From the NCBI GenBank assembly GCA_937138625.1, contig CAKZPF010000004.1:248001-312000 (forward strand): a stretch of DNA of 64,000 nt, written 5' to 3'. Below are positions 40,269 to 42,568 of the stretch, in pieces (the stretch's first letter is position 1; the number at the start of each line of letters is the position of its first letter). A model generated the notes under the pieces. That model was not told where the DNA came from. It saw nothing but the letters and a program-made list of their open reading frames with translations, and did not search any database. This DNA comes from an uncultured Caulobacteraceae bacterium (lineage in GTDB: Bacteria; Pseudomonadota; Alphaproteobacteria; Caulobacterales; Caulobacteraceae). Made by a program: the position numbers and the translations under genes.

Positions 40269-41594
40269 CTATCCCGACAGAATTTCAGACAACTTGCCAA
40301 AGGCCCCTTCGCGGGTATCAAGCTCGCCGATGTTTTGCGCCAAAAAGGCCTCCAGCGGTTCATGCAACTGGATCGCGCGATCGACATTGGGATCCGAGCC
40401 TTTGCGATAGGCGCCCAGGCGTATGAGCTCTTCCATATCCATATAGGCCGACATGGCGCGCCGGGCCTCCTTGACCAGGGCATATTCATCGGGCTCCTGG
40501 CAATCGGGCATGGTCCGGGAAATGGATTTCAGGACATTGATGGCCGGATAGCGCCCGCGCTCGGCGATGGCTCGCTCCATCACAATGTGCCCATCCAAGA
40601 TCCCGCGCACGGCGTCGGCCACGGGTTCGTTGTGGTCATCCCCATCCACCAGCACGGTAAACAGGGCGGTGATGTTGCCGCGACGCCCCGCTGCGGTCAT
40701 TGGACCCGGCCCCGCCCGTTCCAGCAGTTTGGGCAATTCAGCAAAGACCGTGGGCGTATAGCCTTTGGTGGTCGGAGGCTCGCCTGCTGCCAAACCGATT
40801 TCACGTTGGGCCATGGCAAAGCGCGTGACACTGTCCATCAGGCACAAGACCTCGAGGCCCTGATCGCGAAAGTATTCAGCCACCGTCAAGGTCAGATACG
40901 CGGCTTGGCGGCGCGCCAAGGCAGGCTCGTCCGAAGTGGCCACCACCACCACCGAGCGCGCCAAGCCATCCGGGCCCAAAGTCTCTTCCAGGAATTCATT
41001 GACCTCGCGGCCCCGTTCCCCAATCAGACCGACGACCACAACATCACAATCGGCCCCACTGGCCAGCATAGAGAGCAGCACCGATTTCCCGACACCCGAG
41101 CCCGCAAACACCCCCAAGCGCTGCCCTTGGCAACAGGTGGTAAAGACATCGATGGCCCGCACCCCCATATCCAAACGGCCACCCAAGCGCCCGCGCGCAT
41201 GTGCAGGCGGGGGCGGTGACAACAACACGCGGGCCTCGTGTCCAAAGGGCAAGCGCCCGGCCCCATCAATAGGCTCGCCAAAGGCATTGACCACACGACC
41301 CAACCACTGCTGGCAGGGAAAGATAGCGTTTTGTGCCGATAAGGTTTCGATCATGGCCCCTGGGCGCACCCCATCCACACCGCCATAGGGCAACAACAAG
41401 GCTGCACGATCGCGAAAGCCAACGACCTCGCACATCAAATCGTCTTGATATAATCGTTCGATCTTCACTCGGGATCCCACGGCCCAAACGCTGGTGGGGC
41501 CCGAGGCCTCGATCAGCATCCCGCTGACAGACAAAACCCGTCCTGTTAAGGTTAAGGGCTCGAGGCGTTTGATGTCATCGATAAGCGCGCGCAT
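40269..41594 (-). CDS. fliI: flagellum-specific export ATPase
   Basis: FliI is the hexameric ATPase that unfolds and feeds flagellar substrates to the export gate. The 441-residue protein starts [20 protein letters not shown]. It has Walker [41 protein letters not shown], Walker [21 protein letters not shown], and [20 protein letters not shown]. The ATG at 41594 gives the usual length; an in-frame extension to 41663 would run into the ctrA upstream region. The fliI-fliJ pair converges on flhG and is divergent from ctrA with a 260-base shared region. Confidence 0.95.
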
Positions 41595-41668
41595 GGTTAA
41601 CGTTTCGCTCAGAATGGTTAAAAAGGTGTGGACAAGTTTTTCCGCTCTGGACTGGGTTTGCAAATCAG

Positions 41669-41716
41669 CACACGATTCGTGTGTATGGGGGAACTTGATG
41701 CGAAGCCTTGGGATTC
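41669..41716 (+). promoter_or_regulatory. ctrA upstream region: GANTC palindrome and second GANTC
   Basis: A perfect 15-base palindrome CACACGATTCGTGTG (7-base arms, one central base, 41669-41683) has the CcrM methylation target GATTC at 41674-41678 at its centre. A second GATTC is at 41712-41716. Both lie 140-180 bases before the ctrA start. In Caulobacter a GANTC site in a ctrA promoter makes transcription sensitive to hemi-methylation. A role here is inferred, and the region could also serve the divergent fliI. Confidence 0.5.
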
Positions 41717-41854
41717 AGGGCCTTAGCGAAAAAGTTTCTGTGTTAAGGTTTCCGAAGGAATTTGCTGTGCAGATTGGGAGCCTGAGGACGAAACGCCCGC
41801 TTCAGGGGGGGGTGACAGTCTGTTTGTTAGGGTTAACGCTGTTCGGAGGGCTCA

Positions 41855-42568
41855 ATGCGGGTCTTATTGATTGAAGACGATAGCGCCACAGCACAAAGCA
41901 TCGACCTGATGCTGAAGTCTGAGGGGTTCAATGTGTATGTCACCGACCTGGGGGAGGAAGGTGTCGATCTCGGGAAACTGTACGACTACGACATCATTCT
42001 GCTGGATCTGAATTTGCCAGACATGAGCGGCTATGACGTGCTGAAAACATTGCGTGTCGCCAAGGTGGAAACCCCCATCATGATCCTGTCGGGCTCGGCT
42101 GAAATTGACAGCAAAGTGCGCGGCCTGGGATATGGGGCCGATGATTATATGACCAAGCCGTTCCACAAAGACGAAATGGTCGCCCGCATTCATGCGGTGG
42201 TGCGTCGTTCCAAAGGACACGCACAGTCGGTCATCAAAACTGGTGACATCTCGGTCAACTTGGATGCCAAAACCGTCGAGGCCAATGGCCAGCGCGTGCA
42301 TCTGACCGGCAAAGAATATCAGATGCTGGAACTGCTGAGCTTGCGCAAAGGCACTACGCTCACCAAAGAAATGTTCCTCAACCATCTGTATGGCGGCATG
42401 GACGAGCCCGAGCTGAAAATCATCGATGTGTTCATCTGCAAGCTGCGCAAAAAATTGGCGGCAGCGACCCGTGGGCAACATTACATCGAAACCGTTTGGG
42501 GCCGTGGCTATGTGCTGCGCAACCCAGACGAAGACAGCCATACAACTGATACAAGCCAAGCGGCCTAA
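41855..42568 (+). CDS. ctrA: cell-cycle master response regulator CtrA
   Basis: An OmpR-family regulator of 237 residues that controls motility and cell-cycle genes and, in Caulobacter, represses replication. The receiver has D8-D9, phospho-acceptor D51 and K101; D51 is the position known for Caulobacter CtrA. The winged helix has [20 protein letters not shown], the DNA-facing helix [16 protein letters not shown], and [12 protein letters not shown]. The C-terminus ends in Ala-Ala, the residues required for ClpXP recognition in Caulobacter. A CGGAGG ribosome-binding site precedes the ATG. Its phosphorelay donor ChpT and antagonist SciP are also in the window. Confidence 0.97.

Follow-up and report, generated by a model that had tools for sequence, protein, structure and literature searches.

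A perfect palindrome around a GANTC site upstream of ctrA in an uncultured Caulobacteraceae bacterium: probably an ordinary P1 methylation site with a palindromic extension by chance

The window analysed here, a stretch of 64 kb from the 2.02-Mb assembly (98.8% complete) of an uncultured Caulobacteraceae bacterium, carries on its plus strand a gene for a protein of 237 aa (41855-42568). The initial annotation had named this gene ctrA, and the name is borne out by a match of 421.5 bits to the NCBIfam CtrA equivalog NF045991, which exceeds the cut-off of 350. The region in front of the gene is thus upstream of a true ctrA, one of the features of a ctrA P1 promoter controlled by CcrM and GcrA. 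The divergent neighbour on the minus strand is fliI (40269-41594), encoding the flagellar export ATPase (TIGR03498, 618.5 bits; cut-off 587), and the start codons of the two genes (ATG at 41594 for fliI and at 41855 for ctrA) enclose a gap of 260 bp that corresponds exactly to 41595-41854. This divergent arrangement is common: an opposite-strand fliI was found upstream, within a flank of at most 3 kb, at 31 of 80 named ctrA loci.

The gap contains the palindrome CACACGATTCGTGTG (41669-41683), with perfect 7-base arms around one base, which by homology would span approximately -15 to -1 of ctrA P1. At its centre lies a predicted CcrM site, GATTC at 41674-41678, in the context C-GATTC-G that fits YGAKTCK/YGAKTCG, a motif proposed for GcrA, and 38 bases downstream follows a second GATTC (41712-41716), in the context G-GATTC-A and not aligned to any conserved site. 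Both the perfect seven-base arms on a GANTC site and the second GATTC had been pointed out in the initial annotation and were confirmed. A description of CACACGATTCGTGTG was not found in the open-licence literature, which is a weak negative.

The probability of 7-base arms is about 0.001-0.0015 for one given GANTC, and only about 0.2-0.3% considering that there are two GANTC sites in the gap. When the 260 bp were shuffled 20,000 times, an odd-centred perfect palindrome with arms of at least 7 bases turned up in 1.4% of cases. The window as a whole has seven such palindromes, against a mean of 5.6 in 30 shuffles. In a 464-kb sample of the genome, composed of the window and twenty further 20-kb stretches, one of 418 GANTC sites had arms of at least 7 bases where 0.45 was expected, so that about two such GANTC palindromes are to be expected in the complete 2.02 Mb. 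A palindrome with seven-base arms is therefore uncommon locally and not surprising over a whole-genome scan. Within the window alone, arms of at least 6 bases around GANTC are in excess (2 versus 0.21 expected), but the 400-kb sample shows no such excess (1 versus 1.56 expected), and we take that of the window to be due to chance. A general palindromic tendency of GANTC was also considered, as arms of at least 5 bases occur 13 times in the 464 kb against 6.95 expected; it was rejected since other cores vary too, with such arms at 1.1 to 2.7% of the sites of seven similarly built 5-base cores versus 3.1% for GANTC.

A probable relation to a known promoter emerged from the comparison with ctrA-upstream regions of other members of the family. 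The stretch GCAAATCAGCACACGATTCG (41660-41679, plus strand) is homologous to a conserved block upstream of ctrA, agreeing at 18 of 20 positions with two relatives (G002 and G023) and at 17 of 20 with three others (G003, G009 and G024), and it is the sole match in the window to the block of the relatives at up to 3 mismatches, with 0.01 expected by chance. The family block, GANTCGCAAATCA-NNNTA-(A)C-GATTCG, recurs in whole or in part some 120 to 150 bases before ctrA. More specifically, GATTCGCAAATCAGATTAA in one relative (G034) and in two named Caulobacter loci (L032 and L050, from the 15 of 80 named loci that were read) has just the spacing published for P1 of C. crescentus, which is reported to combine a GANTC at -29/-28 with a TTAA half site for CtrA at -14 (PMC4287350; PMC3667746), and the conserved block is therefore identified as the P1 core. 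Judged from the C. crescentus spacing, transcription would start near 41684 and the GATTC would begin at -10.

A P1 profile built from 23 non-redundant relatives, with the sequence under study excluded, placed a P1-like core promoter at 41644-41680 on the plus strand (13.1 bits), with a -35-like CTGGAC at 41647-41652. This site ranked third over both strands of the 64 kb and had no close competitor within the gap, and its score falls below most of the leave-one-out scores of the profile. Hence the GANTC site lies within a core promoter block that is homologous to P1 (18/20 positions; 0.01 matches expected). The idea that the GATTC sits in a ctrA promoter timed by methylation thus holds up as far as the homology with the methylation-controlled P1 is concerned; the part assigned to the palindrome does not.

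The placement of GANTC in this block varies within the family. Of the 36 genomes considered (family f1), three (G017, G027 and G031) were excluded, for want of a close ctrA or because a contig end cut the gene short; of the remaining 33, another three (G015, G029 and G032) do not have the AAATC anchor and stand outside the counts, which thus refer to 30 anchor-bearing members and include one (G019) whose anchor is probably spurious, its context score being 0 like that of the window itself. A GANTC in the spacer is present in 18 of the 30 and lacking in 12, whereas a GANTC at -10 is present in 14, our genome included. Both occur in 12 members and neither in 10, and only the window and one relative (G018) have the -10 site alone. 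The window does not have GANTC at -29 as in C. crescentus but reads GGTTT there; this spacer site at -29 characterises the promoter as found in C. crescentus. It has been reported that GANTC lies within 200 bases of ctrA in five out of five Caulobacteraceae species (PMC3973325, Table 1). The ctrA methylation site is thus conserved in the family as a promoter feature, at two places, namely the spacer and the -10, and judging by the alignment, the GANTC that overlaps the P1 -10 in part of the Caulobacteraceae is very probably represented here by the GATTC at 41674.

The upstream regions of 24 genomes from four other families were inspected visually. In one of these (f4) another block recurs in three genomes (L027, L120 and L015), in which TTAAC, TTAAG or TTTAC is followed by GGGATTC and then by TAGCG or TACCG, with the GATTC some 74-89 bases before ctrA. 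In this block a GANTC possibly separates a CtrA site from a -10.

In the window the P1 block is degenerate. It shows none of the three context features (spacer GANTC, NNNTA at -10 and a downstream TTAAC), and where the relatives have CCTACG at -10 it reads CACACG, the TA being gone, so that P1 may be weak or dead in this genome. The distance from the GATTC at 41674 to the ATG of ctrA is 181 bases; in the relatives some 120-140 bases separate this site from the ATG. No sigma-70 consensus promoter was found, and no pair of -35 and -10 elements passed the scan anywhere in 41500-41900. Moreover, the canonical P2 CtrA box TTAAC-N5-TTAA(A/G), present by strict pattern in 23 of the 32 other family members, was not found in 41595-41854, neither by that pattern nor by a profile of 18 distinct boxes of relatives: no plus-strand position of the gap scored above 6.0 bits, whereas every box entering the profile reached at least 20.8. 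The TTAA half sites left in the gap are at 41597, 41618, 41743 and 41833. Given the missing P2 box, the autoregulation of ctrA may differ here.

On the fliI side, the best CtrA-like site of the gap is TTAACCATTCTGAGC (41607-41621, minus strand), which matches well in its first half only and scores 9.1 bits versus at least 20.8 for the P2 boxes of the relatives in the profile; it could be a CtrA half site in front of the divergent flagellar gene. Upstream of the P1 block, TTGTCCACA (41627-41635, minus strand) resembles a DnaA box; of 33 family members just two, our genome among them, have this pattern close to P1.

The state of the block makes it conceivable that P1 has died in this lineage, that the GATTC is a relic and that ctrA is driven from elsewhere, perhaps from near the second GATTC (41712) and GGCCTTAGCG. 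The -10 TA, the spacer GANTC and the canonical P2 box are all missing, and the CTTAGCG that follows the second GATTC resembles, by eye and unscored, the P2 -10-like CCTAGCG of the relatives. Nevertheless, we regard this as rather unlikely: the 20-base block retains 18 of its positions including CGATTCG, which would not be expected of a long-dead promoter, and the failure to find a -35/-10 pair in 41500-41900 also counts against another consensus promoter.

For the palindrome itself the initial annotation had proposed a dimeric regulator whose binding could depend on methylation. More explicitly, a dimeric repressor covering the P1 -10 might use the whole of CACACGATTCGTGTG as its operator, the methylation at the centre gating its binding. 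In line with this are the perfect arms, which a given GANTC has with a chance of about 0.1%, and the position over the -10, assigned by homology. In C. crescentus and some relatives a CtrA half site lies over the P1 -10, and its loss here would make room for another repressor. The distribution of the sequence speaks against such an operator: among 390 family genomes searched, in which our genome is the sole member of its genus, only that genome itself has CACACGATTCGTGTG. Within its 2.02 Mb there is the one exact copy, none with one mismatch and two with two mismatches, and the 49 places within three mismatches are fewer than the 84 found for the reversed control. Moreover, at the 13 orthologous -10 GANTC sites the arms measure 2 to 4 bases, and the outer arms are missing throughout. 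Thus the motif neither recurs in the genome nor is conserved at orthologous promoters, one or the other of which would be expected of an operator, and the reading was rejected as very improbable.

What is shared is the inner CGATTCG (three pairs), common to 8 of the 13 other -10 GANTC sites. As this heptamer also fits the proposed GcrA motif YGAKTCK, only four outer pairs are left to explain, which would arise by chance about once in 256 cases. The palindromic extension outside CGATTCG (CACA/TGTG) is backed by nothing except its own symmetry, and is most likely due to chance and without a function of its own. The locus would thus illustrate that a striking palindrome can arise by chance around a methylation site.

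An inverted repeat might also act at the level of RNA, as a hairpin or terminator. The sequence does fold as a hairpin, with a z-score of -1.83 and 11 of 200 shuffles equally good, but a scan of the region found no terminator-like site, there was no Rfam match and the repeat would lie upstream of the P1 start deduced above. With no support from the terminator scan, Rfam or the folding, this reading was rejected as well, and its probability is close to negligible.

Concerning the machinery, the genome encodes a CcrM-like methylase of 370 aa (L144:346-1458), with Pfam domains PF01555 and PF18755 (N6_N4_Mtase and RAMA) above cut-off, and a GcrA-like protein (L145:890-1441) with PF07750 above cut-off. 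The best NCBIfam match of the methylase is CcrM, at 634.5 bits below the equivalog cut-off of 830, and the GcrA-like protein reaches 216.4 bits with NCBIfam GcrA, below the cut-off of 280, although both equivalogs are matched over nearly their full length. The combination of NCBIfam matches below and clear Pfam matches above cut-off would be a sign of divergence of the CcrM-like and GcrA-like proteins in a small genome. By the Pfam criteria CcrM and GcrA are thus both represented, and the absence of ccrM, which would have spoken against a methylation site, does not apply. In addition, the window has 49 GANTC sites where shuffles give 212, so that the sequence is about four-fold rarer than chance, and such under-representation is the bias reported for CcrM-bearing Alphaproteobacteria (PMC3973325).

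A far-reaching scenario for this small-genome lineage would be that the ctrA switch has moved from -29 to -10, that the P1 half site and the P2 box were lost and that the palindrome binds a new repressor gated by hemimethylation. The access of that repressor to the -10 GANTC palindrome would then be set by the hemimethylation that follows passage of the fork. We consider this scenario extremely unlikely.

Altogether, the observations are probably best explained by an ordinary ctrA P1 site of the CcrM/GcrA type (GATTC at 41674) that acquired its palindromic extension by chance. The ctrA P1 methylation site is an already known kind of element. By analogy with the published C. crescentus model, replication would turn the fully methylated GATTC hemimethylated, and this methylation state would be read by GcrA together with the sigma-70 RNA polymerase, thereby timing the transcription of ctrA. 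GcrA is a methylation-dependent regulator that is reported to be dimeric and is known to bind ctrA P1 (PMC3667746). In a study of 23 species, control of CtrA by GcrA was rated highly probable in almost all of them, and the expression of ctrA is reported to be lower in a gcrA strain of Brevundimonas subvibrioides (PMC7987155). Strong claims for the control of ctrA by methylation are tempered by the reported finding that a C. crescentus strain with an un-methylatable ctrA promoter does not have an abnormal phenotype (PMC3973325). For C. crescentus it was suggested that the position of GANTC in a promoter decides between activation and repression (PMC4287350); if the -10 placement is functional, it would provide a test of that suggestion.

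Compared with P1 of C. crescentus, the window has a homologous block before the orthologous gene, GANTC in the core promoter and genes for the methylase and GcrA; the two differ in that the single GANTC of C. crescentus P1 (at -29/-28) and its CtrA half site (at -14) are both gone in the window, where GANTC lies at about -10. The P1-like blocks of G002 and G023, from another genus (g3) of the same family, share 18 of 20 bases and the identical -10 GATTCG, yet there, unlike in the window, the spacer GATTC, the P2 CtrA box and the -10 CCTACG are still in place, and the palindrome is absent. The motif YGAKTCK/YGAKTCG proposed for GcrA, for which a preference was reportedly not found in Brevundimonas subvibrioides, leaves the outer CACA/TGTG of the window aside, whereas the CGATTCG at its centre fits (PMC7987155).
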